Source: Halomonas salipaludis (GTDB taxonomy: Bacteria; Pseudomonadota; Gammaproteobacteria; Pseudomonadales; Halomonadaceae). Taken from it: a stretch of DNA of 64,000 bases. A model generated the notes under the pieces. The model did no database searches. It saw only the letters and a list, made by a program, of their open reading frames with translations, and was not told the origin of the DNA. This document shows positions 2,803-11,846 of this stretch, piece by piece (positions within the stretch are counted from its first letter, which is position 1; every line of letters starts with the position of its first letter). Where the stretch lies: NCBI RefSeq assembly GCF_002286975.1, contig NZ_NSKB01000005.1:248001-312000 (forward strand). The letters are read 5' to 3'. The position numbers and the translations under genes were made by a program.

Positions 2803-3558
2803 ATGCTGAAGGCGGTATTGCTCGATATCAGTGGCGTGCTGACCGAGGACGGCGAGGCCCTGCCCGGCGCCGTGGATGCGGTGGCGCGGTTGCAGTCCAG
2901 CGGCCTGGCGCTGCGCTTTCTGACCAACACCTCGCGCAAGACCTCGGCGGCGATGCGTGATGAGCTGCAGCGGCTGGGTTTCGCCCCGGCCCCTGAGCAG
3001 GTCTTCACCGCGCCGGGGGCGATCCGTCGCTATCTCGAGCGCAGCGGGCTGCGCCCCTATCTACTGGTCCATGAGCGGCTCGAGCCCGAGTTTACCGACC
3101 TGCCCCGCGATAACCCCAACGCGGTAGTGCTCGGCGATGCCGAGCAGCGGCTGGACTATGCCCACCTCGACGCGGCCTTCCAGCTGTTGCTGGAGGGGGT
3201 GCCGTTGCTCGCCGTGGGCAGCAATCGCTACTTTCGCCAGGCGGGCGCCCTGCACCTGGACGCGGGGCCCTTCGTGCGTGCCCTGGAGTACGCCGCCGGC
3301 ATCGAGGCCAAAGTGCTGGGTAAACCCTCCGGCGACTTCTTTGATGCCGTGCTCGACGAGGTCGGCGTGGCACCCGATGAGGCGTTGATGGTGGGCGACG
3401 ATGTGGAGTGCGATGTGGTCGCCGCCATGGATATTGGCCTGCAGGCCTGCCTGATCCGCTCGGGCAAGTATCGCCCGGGGGACGAAGCCCGGGCGCCCCA
3501 GGCGCGCTGTGAGGCAAGCCTGGCCGATCTGGTCGATGCGCTGCTGGACACGCGCTAG
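2803..3558 (+). CDS. HAD-superfamily phosphatase, LHPP-like
   Basis: Cytoplasmic HAD hydrolase of about 251 residues. The N-terminal LLDISGVLTEDG is motif I in the D-I-S-G-V-L form of LHPP/HDHD2-like phosphatases (nucleophile Asp8). FLTNTSRKT near residue 46 is motif II. GKPSGDFF and later MVGDDVECDV with the acidic pair complete motifs III and IV. It should hydrolyse a small phosphate ester or N-P bond; the natural substrate is unknown. ATG 2803 is chosen over GTG 2800 because AAGGGGGA at 2788-2795 is better spaced. It stands alone. Confidence 0.85.
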   Translation: MLKAVLLDISGVLTEDGEALPGAVDAVARLQSSGLALRFLTNTSRKTSAAMRDELQRLGFAPAPEQVFTAPGAIRRYLERSGLRPYLLVHERLEPEFTDLPRDNPNAVVLGDAEQRLDYAHLDAAFQLLLEGVPLLAVGSNRYFRQAGALHLDAGPFVRALEYAAGIEAKVLGKPSGDFFDAVLDEVGVAPDEALMVGDDVECDVVAAMDIGLQACLIRSGKYRPGDEARAPQARCEASLADLVDALLDTR

Positions 3559-3610
3559 CCGCACTGGTGGCTGCCATGGTTATGTCACGGAAATGCCATC
3601 TGATTCACTG

Positions 3611-3670
3611 CATGCATATGTGTTGCATATGCATGGCGCGGCTACTATAGTACCATATGCAAAGCATATG
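3611..3670 (+). promoter_or_regulatory. vapBC promoter with two inverted-repeat operators
   Basis: Two palindromes built on the same GCATATG core flank a good sigma-70 promoter. CATGCATATG (3611-3620) is inverted exactly at 3626-3635, and CATATGC (3654-3660) is inverted at 3664-3670. TTGCAT (3623-3628) and TATAGT (3646-3651) are spaced by 17 bases as -35 and -10. The operators overlap both ends of the promoter, as expected for autorepression by the VapBC complex. Confidence 0.75.
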
Positions 3671-3685
3671 CATGGGGTGAGAGAA

Positions 3686-3916
3686 ATGCGTACTGTGTCA
3701 ATATTCAAGAACGGCAAGAATCAGGCAGTCCGACTGCCCGCCGACATGGCCTATGAAGGCATTGGGGAGCTGGAAATCACGAGGGAGGGAGATGTGATCA
3801 CCCTTCGCCCTGTTCGGCCTTCCTGGGCATCTCTGCATGACTTGCCGAAAGCTGACGACGACTTCCTGCAAGAACGACCAACAGTCGTGGGCGATGAAGA
3901 TAGGTTTCATCTGTGA
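3686..3916 (+). CDS. vapB: VapB-type antitoxin (AbrB/MazE fold)
   Basis: A 76-residue antitoxin. MRTVSIFKNGKNQAVRLPAD is the swapped-hairpin (AbrB/MazE-type) DNA-binding motif of VapB/VagC proteins, and the acidic, Pro-rich C-terminal half would wrap around the toxin. It binds VapC, blocks its RNase activity and represses the operon through the repeats at 3611-3670. Start ATG 3686 is chosen because the homology begins there; the frame upstream of it is operator DNA. The stop overlaps the toxin start (GTGA). Confidence 0.85.
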   Translation: MRTVSIFKNGKNQAVRLPADMAYEGIGELEITREGDVITLRPVRPSWASLHDLPKADDDFLQERPTVVGDEDRFHL

Positions 3917-4332
3917 CGACCTACATGCTCGATACATGCATCTGCTCATTCATCATGCGTGAGCACCCAGCATCGGTGATCCAGCGCTTGACCACTGAAG
4001 TTGAGAAGGGCAATCGGATCGTCGTTTCTGCCATCACCTACGCCGAGATGCGTTATGGTCAGCTCGGCAAGAAGGCATCAGCCAAGCACAAGATATTGGT
4101 CGATGAGTTCGTGAGGCGTCTTGATGCCGTATTGGCGTGGGATCAGTCAGCAGTGGATGCGACGGTGGAGGTCATGGGCGACCTGACCAGCGTTGGGAGG
4201 CCCATCGGACCTAACGACACAGCGATAGCAGGACACGCAATTGCCTCTGGCTGTACGTTGGTGACCAACAACGTTCGTGAATTCGGCCGTGTTAAAGCGT
4301 TAGTTTACGAAGACTGGTGTCATTATTCATGA
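3913..4332 (+). CDS. vapC: VapC-type PIN-domain ribonuclease toxin
   Basis: A 139-residue PIN-domain toxin. Catalytic acidic residues are visible: Asp7 in YMLDTCI, Glu45 in TYAEMRYG, and Asp102 in GPNDTAIAGHA, followed by LVTNN..EF near residue 117. All PIN metal ligands appear present, so it should be an active Mg-dependent RNase, probably against initiator tRNA or rRNA as for FitB/VapC relatives. GTG 3913 overlaps the vapB stop by four bases; ATG 3925 is an alternative. The stop lies inside a HipB relic on the opposite strand. Confidence 0.88.
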   Translation: MTTYMLDTCICSFIMREHPASVIQRLTTEVEKGNRIVVSAITYAEMRYGQLGKKASAKHKILVDEFVRRLDAVLAWDQSAVDATVEVMGDLTSVGRPIGPNDTAIAGHAIASGCTLVTNNVREFGRVKALVYEDWCHYS

Positions 4333-4520
4333 CGGCTGCTACCCTTGCGCCGCACGACGACCTTGAGCCTCACCAGGTCCAGCACGTTCAAACCCTTTTG
4401 CAGTTGCAGGGTCGGTTTGCCGCGCTCCACGTCGACCATGAAGCGGTTGCCGGTGCTGGCCGTGTTGCTTTTACAGGCGGCGGCGGTGATGCCCGAACGC
4501 TTACTGGTAGTCTAAGAGCT
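4323..4520 (-). pseudogene. HipB-like antitoxin C-terminal fragment, copy 1
   Basis: Minus-strand translation gives GNRFMVDVERGKPTLQLQKG followed by LNVLDLVRL and a stop at 4323-4325. This is the C-terminal half of the helix-turn-helix of HipB/Y4mF-type antitoxins. The DNA-binding N-terminus is absent and no HipA toxin is next to it. Part of the fragment (4365-4476) is identical to copy 2 at 10550-10661. It is a relic and probably not expressed. Confidence 0.7.
4365..4476. repeat. 112-bp direct repeat, left copy
   Basis: Base-for-base identical to 10550-10661 in the same orientation. It starts GAGCCTCACCAGG and ends GCTTTTACAG. The repeats enclose 6,073 bases of lower-GC DNA, so recombination between them would excise the whole cassette. 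Confidence 0.9.
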
Positions 4521-4610
4521 ATTAATATTCAGCCTACGGGCCCGTAATAGCTTGAATCTTGGCAGCAAGCAGAGCTGCGCCACTCTCCTTCGCATGCTGG
4601 CTTCATGAGG

Positions 4611-5243
4611 TCAAGTCTTCTTGTAAGCTGCAAGCATAATAGCGGCGAGTATAAAAAATGACCCAAATGCGCGATTCATAAGTTTCATTCTTGATGTGGA
4701 GTTGACAAATCGCTTTAGCTGGCTAGCCAATGCTGCATAGCAGAGCATGACGATTATATCTACAGCGAGGAGTGTTCCGCCCATTAGAAGGAGCTGATTC
4801 ATATAAGATGACGTACTGCTGTTGGACAGGAACTGGGGGAAAAGAGCGACCAGAAATACCGTGGCTTTAGGGTTAGTTAGGTTGACGAAAGCAGATTGCC
4901 AGAACTGCTTCTTCTTTGTATTCTCTTCACTATTGATGTTGCTCAAGGAGTCAGGTGATCTCCACTTCTGAACGCCTAGCCAAATGAGATATGCAACTCC
5001 CATCCACTTAATAAATGAGAACATTGTGGTGGAGGATGCTAAGACTGTCCCAATCCCAATAGCAACTGCTAGTATCTGTATACCATACCCAAGTTGCAAG
5101 CCCAAGATAGTTGGGAAGGTGGATTTAACGCCATTGTTAATTCCACTGTTCATCGTATTGATAGCTCCTGCCCCGGGAGATACACTCACCAAAAACGAAG
5201 CCATTAGAAAAGTAAGCCAAACACCAAGGCTCATTGTTGCCAC
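4611..5243 (-). CDS. LysE/RhtB-family amino-acid exporter
   Basis: A 210-residue inner-membrane protein with the LysE/RhtB layout of about six helices. The N-terminal SPGAGAINT segment and the central NLTNPKATVFLVALFPQF are family signatures. Such proteins export amino acids or analogues (threonine, homoserine, lysine, cysteine derivatives) with the proton gradient. Starts at 5243 or 5234 (MSLG) are both possible. The gene is AT-rich and sits inside the repeat-flanked cassette, unlike the GC-rich LysE paralogue at 10730. Its neighbours (aldolase and aminotransferase) suggest it may export their product; that is inference. Confidence 0.85.
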   Translation of the reverse strand: MATMSLGVWLTFLMASFLVSVSPGAGAINTMNSGINNGVKSTFPTILGLQLGYGIQILAVAIGIGTVLASSTTMFSFIKWMGVAYLIWLGVQKWRSPDSLSNINSEENTKKKQFWQSAFVNLTNPKATVFLVALFPQFLSNSSTSSYMNQLLLMGGTLLAVDIIVMLCYAALASQLKRFVNSTSRMKLMNRAFGSFFILAAIMLAAYKKT

Positions 5244-5549
5244 CCTTATAAAAAATAATTGCTTTATTCACTCGGTCAATCAGAAGGGGATGATTATAAC
5301 AGCACTGCTATTACAGTATTGAGTCAGTATGTTGTTGGTATCAGTTCTTCGTGTTCATTCAGCTCGGAGATCGTAGCGAGAAAGGAACTGTGGCAGCTTG
5401 GTTTGTTGCCCCTTTCTCTTGATCTGAGAAGGTTGTAGAAAAATTTCTATCACCCTAGTGAGAATCTGCTCTCTTGCATGCGCACGGACCTGGAGAGCGA
5501 GGCACTCCTGGCCCGTGCAGGATCAATGGATTGGCAGTTAGATCGCGGA
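5244..5549. other. Intergenic region between exporter and binding-protein genes
   Basis: No convincing gene. GAGAAAGG at 5378-5385 pairs with CCTTTCTC at 5411-5418 around a 25-base loop, a weak hairpin that might end transcription of the binding-protein gene reading leftward. The rest should carry the exporter promoter, but I see no clear boxes. Confidence 0.3.
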
Positions 5550-6509
5550 TTAATCGCAGTCGTAGGTCACGCCATTCGCCTCGGCGATGGTACGGATAAT
5601 CTCCCAGCGATCGGCGTAATCGATAGGAATGAACTGGCTTTCTCCATTGTTGGAAAATTCTGCTTGCAACTGTGTGCCTTCCCAGTCGAAGCTAAAGAAG
5701 GCTTCTTTGACCCTTTCCTGTAGTTCAGGATGCAAGTTATGAGAGGTGCCGTAGGGAGTCGTGGGGAAGGTGTCAGAGGTATAAATGACTTCGTAGTCAT
5801 CCTCGCTAATCACCCCCCTTGCTTTCATGCGCGTGATAACTGAGTTGGCGATTGCTGCGGCTTCGTAATCTTGATGAATGACCCCCAGGATCGAGTTCTC
5901 ATGAGTGCCAGCGAAGGGTGTGTCGAAGTCAACGCCAGCTTCCAGTCCGAACTCAGATTTAATGATTGCCGACGGAGCCCTAAATCCAGAATTGGATGTC
6001 TGAGAGGTAAATGCGAGCTCTCTCCCGGCTAGGTCTTCTACAGAGCTGATGCCGCTTCCCGGGTAGGTGATGATTTCCATTTCGTAGCCGAAGCTACCGT
6101 CCTCGCCTGCCATCATGGCAAAGGGGCGGAACCCGCCGCAGTTAACCGCTAGAGGCACACCGCCAGTGTTGAATCCGGCCACATGCAGTCGGCCGGCGCG
6201 TAGCGCCTCCTGCTGGGCGGCGTTGGATTGGACAGGGAAGAACTGGATATCTTTCCCAGTCACTTGGCTCAGGTGATCGAGAAAATCGGACCAGACATTA
6301 GCGTAAACAGCAGGATCTTCGACGGGAGTATAGGCGAAGACCAGAGTGTCAGGATCTGCCCATTGACTCTCATCGGGCGGGATGTCGGCAATCATGTCCC
6401 CATCGGCATCAGTATAACGTTCTGAGAGCTCGGCGTTGGCCTGAAGCGACAGTGCAGCTAAAAGTCCAAGCAGACTGGTTGTTGCTGTCTTTCGATATGC
6501 TCTAAGCAT
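5550..6509 (-). CDS. PhnD-like periplasmic substrate-binding protein
   Basis: A 319-residue secreted binding protein of the PhnD (phosphate/phosphonate ABC) family. The signal peptide has a positive start and a hydrophobic core ending ...SLQANA, with likely cleavage after residue 26. Mature-domain features include FAYTPVEDPAVYANVWSDFL, HVAGFNTGGVPLAVN and GIxxxxDLAGRELAFTSQTSNSG, the ligand-loop type of this family. No permease or ATPase is nearby, so it is an orphan that may share another transporter or act as a sensor partner. The ligand need not be a phosphonate: family members also bind phosphite and other anions. It is divergent from the dehydrogenase at 6948. Confidence 0.85.
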   Translation of the reverse strand: MLRAYRKTATTSLLGLLAALSLQANAELSERYTDADGDMIADIPPDESQWADPDTLVFAYTPVEDPAVYANVWSDFLDHLSQVTGKDIQFFPVQSNAAQQEALRAGRLHVAGFNTGGVPLAVNCGGFRPFAMMAGEDGSFGYEMEIITYPGSGISSVEDLAGRELAFTSQTSNSGFRAPSAIIKSEFGLEAGVDFDTPFAGTHENSILGVIHQDYEAAAIANSVITRMKARGVISEDDYEVIYTSDTFPTTPYGTSHNLHPELQERVKEAFFSFDWEGTQLQAEFSNNGESQFIPIDYADRWEIIRTIAEANGVTYDCD

Positions 6510-6947
6510 GTTAACCTCAATTATAACAGTTAAGAATTTTACTAGAGTGAGGCGTGGATTTTGTATGTAATAGATTACGGTAGTATGTCGTTATGAATAA
6601 GATTTTGTTTCATTAGCTTCTATTTTCTGAAGCCCATTGGCGCTAAAATTTGCTTTCTGTGTCATGGGCATGAAATGTATTTCAGTGGTGCTGTGGGAAG
6701 ACCTGCTAGAGTTATGTTTTTTAGAAGAAAACATGCGGTTGGAAAGCATTTCGGCACTTCGGGAAAAGGAAGAAGGTGACACACTCGGCCTTGATGAAAG
6801 GGCCACGCGGTGGGGTTGTGGTATTCAGGTTGAACTGTCAACGTCACTGAAGCAATAGTGAAACGCGGGGTTAATGTAATGGGGACATGCTTGATCTTCC
6901 AGAAGTAGGTGGTTTTTCTTCCATAGCTTCCTTAGGAGGGTGAGGAT
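6510..6947. other. Divergent intergenic region upstream of the aldolase cluster
   Basis: A 438-base AT-rich region between the divergent binding-protein and dehydrogenase genes. An open frame at 6637-6858 has no ribosome binding site or recognisable domain and I do not accept it. The right end carries a strong ribosome binding site, TAGGAGGGTGAGG, just before ATG 6948. Promoters for both directions must lie here. Confidence 0.4.
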
Positions 6948-7850
6948 ATGTCAAATAGAGTGGCTATAATTGGTACCGGCAGTATTGGGATGGATTTGAT
7001 GTGCAAAACAATCAGTTCCAAAGGGTTGGATCTACGCTTTGTCGTAGGGCGAAGAAGCGATAGCCCAGGCATGAAAGAGGCAATGCTGAGGGGGGTTGCG
7101 ACATCAAGCGAAGGAATTTCCTACCTTGAAGATAATATTGAAGAATTTGATATCGTTTTTGATGCGACTTCGGCAAATTCACACGTAGAGCATGATAGAG
7201 TTTTCTCTAAACATAATAAGTTTGTTGTTGATCTTACGCCAGCCAAGATCGGTGAGCTCTGCGTCCCCGTTATAAATATGGAATCATTGAAAGATTCAAG
7301 GAATATAAATTTAATCACTTGTGGTGGGCAAGCAAGCTTGCCACTGGCATATGCATTAAAGAACTCCTGTGAAAAAGTTATGTATGTCGAGGTGATCTCT
7401 AGCATATCATCTGACAGTGCAGGGATCGCAACTAGGGAGAATCTCAATGAATATGTTGAAACCACAGAATTTGCACTCAAAAAATTTACCGATGCTGAGG
7501 CGTCAAAAGCTATATTGAATATAAATCCAGCAGTTCCTCAAGTGTGTATGCAAACTACGCTATATGCTCGCTGTGAAAAGGTCGATATTGAAAGGTTGGA
7601 AAACAATGTCAACAATGTGGTGAAGAAGGTTAAGGAATATGTTCCAGGCTACAATCTGGTGCTAGAGCCATTAGTTGACTCCGGGAGTGTGACTTTAGCT
7701 GTTCAGGTGTATGGCAGTGGCGATTATCTTCCTGAGTATTCGGGGAATCTAGATATTATCAACTCTGCTGCAATAGCCGTCGCAAAGTTTAAGTCAAAGG
7801 TGAGTGCTTTTGGCTCAAGAGCAGTGACCATTGAGGAGGGGTTGGTATGA
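6948..7850 (+). CDS. Acetaldehyde dehydrogenase (acetylating)
   Basis: A 300-residue relative of MhpF/DmpF (EC 1.2.1.10), which interconverts acetaldehyde plus CoA and acetyl-CoA with NAD(H). The N-terminal IGTGSIG (residues 8-14) is the Rossmann motif. FDATSANSHV, DLTPAKIGELCVP and TCGGQASLP with catalytic Cys125 are family hallmarks, and YSGNLDIINSAA ends the dimer region. It is slightly shorter than typical ~312 aa members but complete. Its stop overlaps the aldolase start by four bases, as in classical pairs that channel acetaldehyde. No ring-cleavage genes are nearby, so a biosynthetic (reverse) role is possible. Strong AGGAGG site upstream. Confidence 0.9.
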   Translation: MSNRVAIIGTGSIGMDLMCKTISSKGLDLRFVVGRRSDSPGMKEAMLRGVATSSEGISYLEDNIEEFDIVFDATSANSHVEHDRVFSKHNKFVVDLTPAKIGELCVPVINMESLKDSRNINLITCGGQASLPLAYALKNSCEKVMYVEVISSISSDSAGIATRENLNEYVETTEFALKKFTDAEASKAILNINPAVPQVCMQTTLYARCEKVDIERLENNVNNVVKKVKEYVPGYNLVLEPLVDSGSVTLAVQVYGSGDYLPEYSGNLDIINSAAIAVAKFKSKVSAFGSRAVTIEEGLV

Positions 7851-8857
7851 AACATAAACACATTTCTCTTAGCGATTGCTCTCTGAGAGATGGCAATCAC
7901 GCGGTTAAGCATCAGCTTAATGTTGAGCAGATAGCTAACTACTGTAAAGGGGCAGATCGAGCTGGGTTAGATATCGTAGAGGTTGGTCACGGATATGGCC
8001 TTGGAGCGTCATCCAGTGCATTTGGTGTTGCCAAAGTAGATGATGAAACCATGTTGTCTGTTGCTAGAGAAAATTGTAAGACATCCAAACTGGGTATCCA
8101 CTTTGTTCCGGGGGTGGGTAAGCACTCTGACCTGGATATGGCCATTGAAATTGGTGTGGATGTTTTTCGAATTGCTAGCCACTGCACGGAAAGCAATATA
8201 ACTTATAGGCCGATACAGTATCTTAAAGCGAAGGGTAAGATGGTGTATGGCGTTCTCATCATGTCTCACATGGCTGATGCCGAAAGACTCCTAAAAGAAG
8301 CCTCAGGAATGAAAGCCGCAGGGGCGGATGGCATTGTCCTCATGGACAGTGCTGGCTACTCGACCCCTGATGTTGTCAGTGAAAAAGTCTCAGTTTTGCA
8401 CGAAAACCTCGGAATTACTATTGCCTATCATGCTCATAATAACCTTGGCCTTGCTGTCGCAAACTCAATTGCGGCGGTAGAGTCTGGCGCAGAGATAATT
8501 GATGCCACAATAAAGGGCTTTGGGGCGGGTTCAGGAAACACGCAGTTGGAGGCTGTAGTCGCTGTATTTGAAAGATATGGATACGAGATGAATGTTAAGT
8601 TCAAGGACCTTGTCAATCTATCCTTGTACGCTGAAAGTAATATAATAAGCAGTGTTCCTGATATAAAGGCAATAAACATTATGACAGGGATGCATGGGCT
8701 GTTTACTGGCTACGGGACGTATGTCCAGAAAGTCTCGTCTGACTTCGGTGTTGATATCTTTGATCTGTGTGAAAGGCTTGCTTCTAGAAAGTTGGTTGCT
8801 AGCCAAGAAGATATAATCTTAGAAGAAGCAAGTAAGATGGCCAAAGGAGTCGTATAA
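7847..8857 (+). CDS. 4-hydroxy-2-oxovalerate aldolase
   Basis: A 336-residue class II pyruvate aldolase (DmpG/MhpE/BphI type, EC 4.1.3.39). The catalytic segment SLRDGNHAVKHQ supplies Arg14, metal ligand Asp15 and base His18; YHAHNNLGLAVANS supplies metal ligands His195 and His197. The C-terminal communication domain (about residues 265-330, with GMHGLFTGYGTY) that docks the dehydrogenase is present. The enzyme splits 4-hydroxy-2-oxopentanoate to pyruvate and acetaldehyde, reversibly. ATG 7847 overlaps the previous stop (ATGA), so the two are translationally coupled. A hairpin terminator follows at 8884. Confidence 0.92.
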   Translation: MKHKHISLSDCSLRDGNHAVKHQLNVEQIANYCKGADRAGLDIVEVGHGYGLGASSSAFGVAKVDDETMLSVARENCKTSKLGIHFVPGVGKHSDLDMAIEIGVDVFRIASHCTESNITYRPIQYLKAKGKMVYGVLIMSHMADAERLLKEASGMKAAGADGIVLMDSAGYSTPDVVSEKVSVLHENLGITIAYHAHNNLGLAVANSIAAVESGAEIIDATIKGFGAGSGNTQLEAVVAVFERYGYEMNVKFKDLVNLSLYAESNIISSVPDIKAINIMTGMHGLFTGYGTYVQKVSSDFGVDIFDLCERLASRKLVASQEDIILEEASKMAKGVV

Positions 8858-8883
8858 GGGAGTAGATATATTACTTTATCTTT

Positions 8884-8920
8884 AAGCCGTGGCTCAACTA
8901 TGCGGGACACGGCTTTTATT
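8884..8920 (+). terminator. Hairpin terminator after the aldolase gene
   Basis: AAGCCGTG (8884-8891) pairs exactly with CACGGCTT (8908-8915) around a 16-base loop and is followed by TTATT. It lies between the aldolase and the aminotransferase, so the latter may have its own promoter or depend on readthrough. Confidence 0.55.
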
Positions 8921-8943
8921 CTAGTTCTATTGAGAGGTATTTT

Positions 8944-10137
8944 ATGTTTGAAAGCCTTGAGATGACTCATCCTGACCCAATCTTAACTCTTAGCGAGCAC
9001 TTCATGAGTGATACTAATCCCAGGAAGATTGATCTGGGAATAGGTCTTTATAAAGATAAAAATGGGAATACTCCTGTCATGGAGTCAGTGAGGATAGCAG
9101 AAAGTTCTATTGTTGATAGGGCTGTCGATAAAGTCTATAAAGGTTCAAGTGGCCTTGATGGGTTTTGTGATGTGATCTCCTGGCTGCTTTTCAGGGCAAG
9201 GAGTAACTTAATTGAATATGGAAGGGTTTTGTCTATTCAAACTATAGGTGGAACAGGAGCGATTAGGCTTGCGGCAGAGTTTCTTAAACAGATAAACCCT
9301 AAGAAAGGGGTCTGGGTTAGCGACCCGACATGGGGGAATCATATAGATATTTTTTCACATGTAGGGATGCAGGTTTCTTACTACCCCTATCAAGAAATTG
9401 GAGGTGATTTGAACTTTCCAGTGATGCTGGAAAGTATTAGAAAAATTCCAGAAGGTGATGTGGTTGTTTTGCACGGCTGCGGGCATAATCCTACTGGTTT
9501 TGATCTTTCAAAATATCAATGGGGTGCTGTGCTGGAAGTTGTAAAGGAAAGAGGTCTATTTCCAGTAATTGATATGGCTTATCATGGTCTGGCAAATGAT
9601 TTGTGCGATGATGTTTACTGCGTGGAGCTGTTCTCTGATCATCTAGATGAGATGCTTGTTGCGTATTCTTGCTCCAAAAGTTTTGGGCTTTATCGAGATA
9701 GGGTTGGAGCTCTTGTAGTCCTAGGTAAGAGCCGCGATAGCTGTGTAAAGGCCAAGCTCCATCTAGCCAGGCTGGCTAGAGTAAGTATCTCCAGTCCAGC
9801 TATACATGGTGCATTAATTGTGAGCGAAATACTGTCGTCGCCTGATCTAAAGAGGATGTGGGTAGGAGAATTAAATCTTATGTCGATTAAAATTAAAGCT
9901 GCAAGGAAGGTGCTAATTAATGAGGCTCGCATGCAAGGGTGTGATGATACTTTTAGAAACGTCTGCAGTGGTGTGGGATTGTTTTCATTGATTCCAGTTG
10001 GTAGAGAAGATGTAGGCATGTTAAGGGAGGTATTCTGTATATATATGCTGGATTCGGGGAGGATAAATTTATCAGGGGTAAATAACAATAATGTTGGCTA
10101 TGTTGTTTCATCGATAAAGACATTGCTGGGCAAATAA
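8944..10137 (+). CDS. Aspartate/aromatic aminotransferase (AspC/TyrB type)
   Basis: A 397-residue class I PLP aminotransferase close to AspC/TyrB. Landmarks in order: YKDKNGNTPVMESV, GGTGAIRLAAEFL, WVSDPTWGNH, LHGCGHNPTGFD, VIDMAYHGLAND, the Schiff-base lysine in SCSKSFGLYRDRVGAL, and SGRINLSGVN near the end. It should move an amino group between glutamate or aspartate and a 2-oxo acid. Next to the aldolase it could aminate 4-hydroxy-2-oxopentanoate to a hydroxynorvaline; this is inference. Codon use is as AT-rich as the two genes before it. An AGAGG-like ribosome site lies just upstream. Confidence 0.9.
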   Translation: MFESLEMTHPDPILTLSEHFMSDTNPRKIDLGIGLYKDKNGNTPVMESVRIAESSIVDRAVDKVYKGSSGLDGFCDVISWLLFRARSNLIEYGRVLSIQTIGGTGAIRLAAEFLKQINPKKGVWVSDPTWGNHIDIFSHVGMQVSYYPYQEIGGDLNFPVMLESIRKIPEGDVVVLHGCGHNPTGFDLSKYQWGAVLEVVKERGLFPVIDMAYHGLANDLCDDVYCVELFSDHLDEMLVAYSCSKSFGLYRDRVGALVVLGKSRDSCVKAKLHLARLARVSISSPAIHGALIVSEILSSPDLKRMWVGELNLMSIKIKAARKVLINEARMQGCDDTFRNVCSGVGLFSLIPVGREDVGMLREVFCIYMLDSGRINLSGVNNNNVGYVVSSIKTLLGK

Positions 10138-10225
10138 GGGGGGGGTGACAGAATTCATAAAAATTGTTTTGTATCACAGTGCATTCATCATGTGGACATA
10201 AGTTAGCCCTTCGGATTAGGAGTCG

Positions 10226-10504
10226 TTAATGACTTAGATAAAGTGCACAGTGATAGTAATCACCTGACACATCCCCCGTGGAGCTAACCTGGATGCCACT
10301 TAGGGCTAGCTCTTGAGCCACGCGAACAGGGCCGTGGGTAGGGAAGGCTAGGTTGTGCTCGAGAATGGCCGCTTCGATCTCTCCGTTAATGGGCTTGGGG
10401 GGGGGGGGCCCCGTGGCCCACGAAGCTTGTCGATCAACCCCTCGGAGTCGAAGGTTTGATAGTAGACTGAGCCTGCGTCGTGCAACCTTTTCTTTGGTGG
10501 TCAT
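10226..10504 (-). mobile_element. IS481-family transposase remnant
   Basis: The minus frame from ATG 10504 begins MTTKEKVARRRLSLL, the usual N-terminus of IS481-type transposases. It then jumps to EIEAAILEHNLAFPTHGPVR followed by VAQELALSGIQVSS from the second helix-turn-helix. The part between is shortened and altered, and the catalytic DDE domain is missing, so it is inactive. A run of 12 G (10397-10408) lies in the damaged stretch. TGTTACAGCCGAGCGTCAGA from 10521 may be its terminal inverted repeat. It abuts the right 112-bp repeat. Confidence 0.75.
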
Positions 10505-10549
10505 AGTCGTTTCCTCATGGTGTTACAGCCGAGCGTCAGACACTCGCTC

Positions 10550-10661
10550 GAGCCTCACCAGGTCCAGCACGTTCAAACCCTTTTGCAGTTGCAGGGTCGG
10601 TTTGCCGCGCTCCACGTCGACCATGAAGCGGTTGCCGGTGCTGGCCGTGTTGCTTTTACAG
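10550..10661. repeat. 112-bp direct repeat, right copy (HipB fragment)
   Basis: Identical to 4365-4476. On the minus strand it encodes the HipB-type segment GNRFMVDVERGKPTLQLQKG followed by LNVLDLVRL. Outside the repeat the two copies diverge: the reading frame here runs into sequence next to the IS481 relic and stops near 10523. This suggests that the IS end or a recombination event defined this boundary. Confidence 0.9.
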
Positions 10662-10729
10662 CTGGCGACGGAAATGCTTTAGTAAGCATGTGCTGAACGT
10701 CACCGGTATGCTCACTTGAGGAACACGTT

Positions 10730-11344
10730 ATGCCGCTGGAACTGTGGCTCTCCTTCTGCTTGGCCTCGCTGTTGATCATCGCTTCGCCCGGCCCTGCCGT
10801 GGCGCTGCTGGTCGCTACCGGGGTCAACCGCGGGCGACGCGCCGCCCTGGCGATGCTTCCCGGCTTCTTCCTGGGGGATTTGCTGGCCATGACCCTGTCG
10901 TTCGCCGGGGTCGGTGCGCTGCTGATGGCCTCTGCCGAACTGTTCCAGCTCTTCAAATGGCTCGGGGCTGCTTACCTGCTCTACCTGGGCATCAAGATGT
11001 GGCGCGAGGCCGGTCAGCTGGGCGAACTGCAGCCTACGGGGACGGATATTCGTCTCGGCACCGCCAAGGCGTTTTTGGTCACGGCACTGAATCCCAAGAG
11101 CCTGGCTTTCTTCATGGCCTTCATGCCGCAGTTCGTGGCACCCAGCCAGCCCTTGTTGCCGCAGTTGGCCATCCTGTTCTCGACGTTTCTGGCCCTCGGC
11201 GTGCTCAGCGATCTCGCCTTCACCTTCCTGGCCACCAGTGGCGGCCGGATGCTGAGCGCCCGGCTGCGCCGCATCCTGCACCGCACCGGTGCCGGCAGCC
11301 TGATCGGGGCGAGTGCCCTGGTCGCCGCCATGCGGCGGCCTTGA
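10730..11344 (+). CDS. LysE-family translocator
   Basis: A 204-residue, six-helix inner-membrane exporter of the LysE/RhtB family. Signatures are ASPGPAVALLVATG near the N-terminus and TALNPKSLAFFMAFMPQFV in the middle, with a final hydrophobic helix containing GASALVAAM. It probably exports an amino acid or related metabolite. A TGAGGAAC ribosome site precedes ATG 10730. GC-rich codon use marks it as a host gene outside the cassette. The acetyltransferase start lies about 20 bases past its stop, so the two probably form an operon. Confidence 0.88.
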   Translation: MPLELWLSFCLASLLIIASPGPAVALLVATGVNRGRRAALAMLPGFFLGDLLAMTLSFAGVGALLMASAELFQLFKWLGAAYLLYLGIKMWREAGQLGELQPTGTDIRLGTAKAFLVTALNPKSLAFFMAFMPQFVAPSQPLLPQLAILFSTFLALGVLSDLAFTFLATSGGRMLSARLRRILHRTGAGSLIGASALVAAMRRP

Positions 11345-11363
11345 GGAGGAGGGCGCGCTGCCC

Positions 11364-11846
11364 ATGTGCCACTCGCCACATGCCCCCGCAACCTTGCAGT
11401 GCATCGGTGCCGCTTCCGAAAATAGCGCGTTCTTCGACTATGCCCGGCGGCTGACCCGCGACAACATGCAGGCCGACTACCGCCGCCATGGCCTGGTCTG
11501 GGACGATGCCCATTTCGCTCGGTACTGGAGCGAGACGCAGAATTATCTGATACGCGCGGGAGACAGCTGGCTGGGGGTGCTACGCCTCTATCTCGAGCCT
11601 CCCGCCTGCTATCTGCGTGACCTGCAGATAGCACCTTGCCGGCAACGGCAGGGGCTGGGCCGCTGGTGTTTGCAGCGGGTCACGGCGCTTGCCTTGGCCA
11701 ATGGTTGCCGGCATCTACGGCTGCGAGCGTTTCACGACAGTGCGGCGGTACGCCTGTATCAGCGCCACGGTTTTCACTTGGTGGGCAGAGAGGGGGCCCT
11801 GGTGCGCATGGAGATGGTGCTGGCTGAGCCGCTGGCAACAACGTAA
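11364..11846 (+). CDS. GNAT-family N-acetyltransferase
   Basis: About 160 residues with the GNAT core: YLIRAGDSWLGVLRL strand region, YLRDLQIAPCRQRQGLGRWC with the Q/R-x-x-G-x-G/A acetyl-CoA loop, and the LYQRHGFHLVGR C-terminal motif. Substrate unknown: amino acid, amine or protein N-terminus. ATG 11364 is preferred because GAGGAGGG lies just after the exporter stop; the longer frame from 11313 overlaps the exporter gene. Pairing with a LysE exporter is common and may mean acetylation of an exported compound, but this is inference. Confidence 0.8.
   Translation: MCHSPHAPATLQCIGAASENSAFFDYARRLTRDNMQADYRRHGLVWDDAHFARYWSETQNYLIRAGDSWLGVLRLYLEPPACYLRDLQIAPCRQRQGLGRWCLQRVTALALANGCRHLRLRAFHDSAAVRLYQRHGFHLVGREGALVRMEMVLAEPLATT

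Follow-up and report, generated by a model that had tools for sequence, protein, structure and literature searches.

A low-GC gene cassette of Halomonas salipaludis that may build and export a gamma-hydroxy amino acid

What does a pair of enzymes that normally closes meta-cleavage pathways do when it stands beside an aminotransferase gene? The question is raised by a 64,000-nucleotide stretch of the Halomonas salipaludis genome (contig NZ_NSKB01000005.1, positions 248,001 to 312,000; the whole stretch is called the window here, and positions are counted from its first letter). Three open reading frames (ORFs) follow one another on its forward strand, encoding an acylating aldehyde dehydrogenase (6948-7850, 300 amino acids), a pyruvate aldolase (7847-8857, 336 amino acids) whose gene overlaps the first by 4 nt, and an AspC/TyrB-type aminotransferase (8944-10137, 397 amino acids). 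An original prediction had described these as intact genes of low guanine-plus-cytosine (GC) content, which the ORF list and GC values bear out (0.421, 0.446 and 0.415, respectively, vs. 0.597 for the window), and had proposed that the first two enzymes run in reverse, joining acetaldehyde from acetyl-coenzyme A (acetyl-CoA) to pyruvate, and that the third aminates the product. We find that the locus is probably best read as a horizontally acquired module making a gamma-hydroxy amino acid for export. The biosynthetic part of the proposal is supported by the phylogeny of the pair, the neighbours of its relatives, the lack of a recognized catechol-type route in the genome and a conserved partner of the RhtB exporter type, while the product it named, 4-hydroxynorvaline or a homologue, is plausible only.

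Both members of the pair belong to the families expected of them. The dehydrogenase scores 353.5 bits against the NCBIfam acetaldehyde dehydrogenase family TIGR03215 (cut-off 282.25) and the aldolase 295.1 bits against the 4-hydroxy-2-oxovalerate aldolase family TIGR03217 (cut-off 286); the latter also has the communication domain PF07836 and matches four solved aldolases of the family. The predicted catalytic residues are present in the alignment, with Cys125 in the dehydrogenase and the metal-binding and catalytic residues Arg14, Asp15, His18, His195 and His197 in the aldolase. In sequence family, catalytic residues, PF07836 and gene adjacency the two are thus like the MhpE/MhpF, DmpG/DmpF and BphI/BphJ pairs, with identities of 33% to E. 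coli MhpE and 41% to E. coli MhpF. The cassette differs from these pairs in that it falls in a separate branch, has other residues at positions 87 and 290 of the aldolase, and includes an aminotransferase and an exporter, with no hydratase or dioxygenase recognized alongside.

The separate branch is seen in an aldolase tree and a dehydrogenase tree of 50 rows each, drawn with a midpoint root and with at most one aldolase per locus. In the aldolase tree 18 rows, including that of the window, split from 32 rows that include E. coli MhpE with support of 100/99, so that the aldolase does not group with the catabolic enzymes; the dehydrogenase tree divides the same 18 from the same 32 (with E. coli MhpF), again with 100/99. 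The 32-row side holds the ordinary enzymes of the order, represented by 28 loci that are the best-scoring of the order sample and not a random draw, and 20 of these show an MhpD-like hydratase within the 4-kb piece. From 564 plasmid records, 30 were listed and nine fetched (H1-H4, H12, H15, H23, H27 and H28); the trees do not include L055 and L060 (both from the plasmid of L043), L038, the distantly matching loci L002-L007, or shorter loci that duplicate genes already represented. Taking profile, tree and residues together, we place both genes in a non-catabolic branch of their families.

The same division appears in the aldehyde pocket of the aldolase. Residues are numbered as in BphI, with the catalytic arginine at what we take to be position 16, and this numbering puts Leu, Leu and Tyr at positions 87, 89 and 290 in all five ordinary rows checked. 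The window aldolase has His85, Val87 and Phe286 at these positions, and so has neither the Leu87 nor the Tyr290 of the 4S-specific BphI pocket. Of the 18 aldolases of the branch, 15 carry His and 3 carry Phe at position 87; at position 290 Phe is found in 13 of them, Cys in four, Val in one and Tyr in none. The 32 other rows have Tyr290 without exception and Leu87 in 31. His87 and Phe290 occur together in 54 of 63 viral relatives, two of the 63 being distant. In BphI (PMC3962088), the C4 centre lies between Leu87 and Tyr290, the Y290F change abolishes stereocontrol, the L87N/Y290F and L87W/Y290F enzymes are 4R-specific instead of 4S-specific, and the L89A change makes room for longer aldehydes, positions 87 and 89 shaping the aldehyde pocket. 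One review reports 4R stereochemistry from BphI engineering only. Because positions 87 and 290 have changed from Leu and Tyr, as in engineered BphI, the aldolases of the branch are predicted to give the 4R product. A natural branch with a pocket like that of engineered 4R BphI would come as a surprise, as would its combination with an aminotransferase of the AspC type and an exporter of the RhtB type; two pocket residues set the branches apart, and natural 4R specificity is sharply testable.

Several branch members have neighbours that indicate how the pair is used elsewhere. At six sugar loci read by eye (G562, G789, G800, G940, G974 and G1117) nucleotide-sugar-type genes surround the pair in every case, and all but the G789 stretch also have an acetolactate-synthase-type thiamine pyrophosphate (TPP) enzyme close by, five loci in total; the TPP enzyme of G562 is confirmed by profiles and those of the other sugar loci were recognized by eye, while G668 was compared by BLAST only. 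On plasmid pSYMBR3459 of Paraburkholderia phenoliruptrix the pair is followed by a gene with the annotation glucose 1-dehydrogenase, a gene of the carboxymuconolactone-decarboxylase family and one for a TPP enzyme. On plasmids of Phaeobacter and Leisingera, genes for an ATP-grasp protein and a class I/II aminotransferase accompany the pair, and in P. porticola the ATP-grasp protein contains an L-amino-acid ligase domain by Pfam. In Streptomyces NBC_01237 a HisC-like aminotransferase gene comes after the pair and an ORF that looks like a nonribosomal peptide synthetase lies about 4 kb further on the opposite strand; carrier-protein, lyase and MaoC-type genes adjoin the pair on two other Streptomycetaceae plasmids. 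Viral contigs contribute 63 loci with an aldolase relative (L080-L142), 58 of them with the dehydrogenase and 59 with a TPP enzyme, and phages may carry an erwiniose-like sugar-branching module. Judged from the tree and these gene contexts, the whole branch probably serves building, whether its members lie on chromosomes, on plasmids or on viral contigs. Plasmid annotations of branch members as dmpG or acetaldehyde dehydrogenase suggest aromatic breakdown, whereas the tree and the neighbours point to building.

An exporter gene of the LysE type had been predicted in the same cassette, and it is found there at 4611-5243 on the reverse strand (GC 0.442), inside a pair of direct repeats described below; its product scores 222.9 bits against NF007812, the RhtB homoserine/homoserine lactone exporter family (cut-off 209). 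A second genome from another family, G065, has the four genes in one stretch together with an inositol-phosphatase-family gene, flanked by transposase-like ORFs (by eye). Identities to the window are 80% for the aldolase, 70% for the dehydrogenase, 64% for the RhtB-type exporter, which is likewise over the RhtB equivalog cut-off at 223.9 bits, and 53% for the AspC-like aminotransferase. Since the four genes also stand together in G065, their grouping in the window is not a matter of chance.

The aminotransferase belongs to the NCBIfam aromatic aminotransferase subfamily NF006719 (446.5 bits, cut-off 377). In AspC numbering, the equivalents of K258, R292 and R386, that is, the pyridoxal phosphate lysine and both substrate arginines, are kept in the enzymes of the window and of G065, and therefore glutamate or aspartate is the likely amino donor. 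One alignment gives it an identity of 37.5% to AspC and 35.2% to TyrB, and of 43.8% to a second AspC-like protein encoded in the same genome; the presence of this second gene elsewhere in the genome, 44% identical, we count in favour of a biosynthetic role. At six positions known to distinguish AspC from TyrB (39, 41, 47, 69, 109 and 297) the window enzyme is as TyrB at 39 and 297, hydrophobic as TyrB at 69, and as AspC at 41, 47 and 109. A broader substrate specificity is plausible.

If the module runs in the synthetic direction, the acylating dehydrogenase would reduce an acyl-CoA, most likely acetyl-CoA, with NAD(P)H to the aldehyde, which would pass to the aldolase by analogy with DmpFG and BphIJ. 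The aldolase would add pyruvate to form a 4-hydroxy-2-oxo acid, predicted to be 4R because BphI positions 87 and 290 are occupied by His and Phe, and the AspC-like enzyme would turn this keto acid into an L-gamma-hydroxy amino acid, using glutamate or aspartate as amino donor. With acetyl-CoA as the starting point the product would be 4-hydroxynorvaline, perhaps (2S,4R), a homologue of homoserine, and the RhtB-type protein would export it. More tentatively, and with rather less than even confidence, we suggest a mobile four-gene module, of which our searches gave no description, that makes and secretes a free (2S,4R)-gamma-hydroxy amino acid, possibly as a homoserine or threonine antimetabolite, by way of a naturally 4R branch of DmpG enzymes. 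The cassette would provide a brief path to gamma-hydroxy amino acids together with an exporter that suits them.

The chemistry has precedents in nikkomycin and erwiniose. The nikkomycin peptidyl-moiety pathway contains aldolase and aminotransferase steps. Within it, as reported in PMC3520715, SanN turns an acyl-CoA into an aldehyde on the way to a hydroxy amino acid, as proposed here; the differences are its aromatic acyl-CoA and its peptidyl nucleoside product. Branched O-antigen sugars of the erwiniose and caryophyllose type (ErwE, YerE-like) offer the other parallel: the substrates of ErwE are 4-hydroxy-2-oxo acids (PMC12247030), the product of such an aldolase, and members of the branch adjoin TPP enzymes in sugar loci. 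There the keto acid goes to a carboligase and not to an aminotransferase, and no sugar genes were recognized in the cassette; no TPP carboligase or CDP-sugar gene was seen among those genes at 3913-11846 that were scanned by Pfam or read, not every ORF there being scanned. The Phaeobacter and Leisingera plasmid cluster has aldolase, dehydrogenase and aminotransferase side by side, as in the cassette, and differs in its aldolase (46-48% identity), the subfamily of its aminotransferase and the lack of an AspC-type or RhtB match. In vitro, a tandem of aldol addition and transamination converts pyruvate and an aldehyde into 2S,4R gamma-hydroxy amino acids (PMC8482765), the same reaction sequence as proposed for the cassette in a man-made cascade with the aldolase HBPA.

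Other functions have to be weighed against this assignment. The cassette could be catabolic, deaminating an external gamma-hydroxy amino acid and cleaving it to pyruvate and an aldehyde that ends as acyl-CoA, with RhtB protecting against the toxic amino acid. The reaction order is complete in that direction, which is thermodynamically downhill, and no obvious downstream gene lies in the cassette; we nevertheless regard this as unlikely, given that the partner common to both genomes is an exporter and not an importer, that branch members with neighbours read are mostly in building loci, and that the residue pattern is unlike all 32 rows of the other branch. It is similarly improbable, in our estimate, that the synthetic direction is right and the product another, with a longer or polar aldehyde as substrate or with the keto acid as the real product and an incidental aminotransferase. 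The His and Val at the aldehyde-pocket positions 87 and 89 would fit that idea (PMC3962088), as would the aromatic aldehyde of the nikkomycin route (PMC3520715); a dehydrogenase over the acetaldehyde dehydrogenase equivalog cut-off and an aminotransferase gene after the pair in both genomes argue against it.

A leftover of meta-cleavage, in which the last two enzymes of aromatic breakdown happen to stand next to an unrelated aminotransferase gene, is suggested by the family names and by catalytic residues as in DmpFG. The modest identity to MhpE and MhpF, the position apart from the catabolic group and the same gene set in G065 disfavour it, as does a search of the genome. The catechol-route hydratase profile TIGR03220 gave two matches, 216.5 and 76.5 bits against a cut-off of 408.8, and the better of them passes the cut-off of the HpaH profile (436.8 vs. 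351.5), which identifies it as HpaH of the homoprotocatechuate route; an ORF resembling that route's aldolase (by eye) follows it. The catechol 2,3-dioxygenase profile TIGR03211 gave one match, a 142-amino-acid protein at 43.8 bits against 320.2. No catechol-type hydratase or catechol 2,3-dioxygenase is thus over cut-off in the genome, other extradiol and ring-cleavage families having not been searched. These matches lie on contigs 31, 12 and 30 and not on contig 29, that of the window, where within the same limit the original prediction had rightly seen no hydratase or ring-cleavage gene; a hydratase with a dioxygenase elsewhere in the genome, which it had held to speak for breakdown, amounts in these two profile searches to HpaH and the 43.8-bit match. 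On tree, neighbours and the genome search with these two profiles we reject the meta-cleavage remnant as very unlikely.

Several observations weigh against synthesis of an exported gamma-hydroxy amino acid. We infer the synthetic direction of the pair, and turning an acyl-CoA into an aldehyde is energetically unfavourable under standard conditions. His87 is neither Asn nor Trp, and its acting like either is an extrapolation from the engineered enzymes; Arg292 is kept in the aminotransferase, which may be a strict aspartate aminotransferase. Both trees have many long branches, and the tree program cautions against long-branch joins; among the dehydrogenases, the fork uniting the 15 proteobacterial rows of the branch, the window's included, has weak support (89/69), and a very long branch leads to the three Streptomycetaceae rows. 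An MhpD-like gene lies beside the pair in all three of these rows, and in P. phenoliruptrix the carboxymuconolactone-decarboxylase-family gene is two genes past it. Pfam recognized no amino-acid-modifying, ligase or resistance gene in the cassette, and the four genes are together in two genomes only.

The search for the trio in other genomes that the original prediction had called for gave the recurrence in G065, with RhtB, and no third instance of the four genes together. In the order sample the aldolase is matched with an E value no higher than 1e-40 in 124 of 390 genomes, and among the matches listed identity is 30-39% except for the window's own and the one in G065. Under stricter limits a match was found in 4 of 369 genomes of the class (one of the four, G495, falling in the other branch), 7 of 398 of the phylum, 2 of 48 of the genus of G065, 2 of 248 of the Phaeobacter family, 1 of 391 of the order at >=95% completeness and 1 of 5 of the window's own genus, the other four having no close aldolase; the samples overlap, and a tally includes the genome of the window or G065 whenever these fell in the sample. 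AspC-type matches among 74 loci are confined to the window's genome (cassette and other copy) and G065, and none of the ORFs in the 63 viral loci is matched best by the AspC-type or RhtB query. On these counts the exact four-gene set is rare, and no description of it was found in the open-access literature searched. A genome-contig search with the aldolase alone returned only two Actinomadura rows at 35%, and the phage collection holds no close aldolase, the best of 17 records being a Salmonella entry at 35.3% annotated as 4-hydroxy-2-oxovalerate aldolase.

The trio, the RhtB-type exporter gene and a PhnD-like gene are enclosed by two 131-nt direct repeats, 95% identical, at 4362-4492 and 10547-10677. 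Read by eye on the reverse strand, the left copy resembles the C-terminal part of a HipB-type regulator. A search of the genome gave three matches; the third is partial (71 nt at 76% identity) and lies some 15 kb ahead of the window, in a piece that also has a HipA-looking ORF (by eye). Because the repeats read like a HipB end and the partial match lies near this ORF, the pair looks like a gene remnant present in duplicate, with the cassette inserted between the copies. The PhnD-like substrate-binding protein (5550-6509, reverse strand, PF12974) is unlikely to belong to the module because its GC is 0.532 and the G065 stretch has no match to it. Its ten best relatives of 881 plasmid records, 66.6-69.1% identical and annotated as PhnD or phosphonate-type binding proteins, include one from soil contaminated with arsenic and another from a mat in a gold mine.

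Within the cassette, a weak possible hairpin lies between the aldolase and aminotransferase genes (8884-8915, forward strand; z -1.89, 9 of 200 shuffles folding equally well), and the corresponding gap in G065 has another hairpin (z -3.18, 1 of 200). No Rfam family reaches its gathering score within 4000-11000, and promoter and terminator matches number 11 and 4 vs. 10.2 and 5.7 in shuffles. A short ORF at 10226-10504 on the reverse strand looks by eye like a decayed transposase, with no Pfam or NCBIfam match. Just beyond the right repeat, and outside the pair, is a second LysE-type gene (10730-11344, forward strand, GC 0.662), probably native, followed by a GNAT acetyltransferase gene, and before the left repeat an ORF pair at 3509-4332 on the forward strand looks like a VapB-VapC toxin-antitoxin system, its second ORF having a PIN domain. 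Among the loci elsewhere, L095, a viral one, also has glycan-type genes and endolysin-like and holin-like ORFs (by eye). On the Phaeobacter porticola plasmid, L043 (6946-15260) holds two ATP-grasp proteins, one with the L-amino-acid ligase domain, FAD/NAD-binding and AbrB-family proteins, and the aldolase, dehydrogenase and aminotransferase, possibly a dipeptide pathway. On a Rhizobium lusitanum plasmid, L066 (5345-16556) shows the pair with carbamoyltransferase-, alpha-oxoamine synthase-, CoA-ester lyase- and ornithine-cyclodeaminase-like ORFs, as read by eye.

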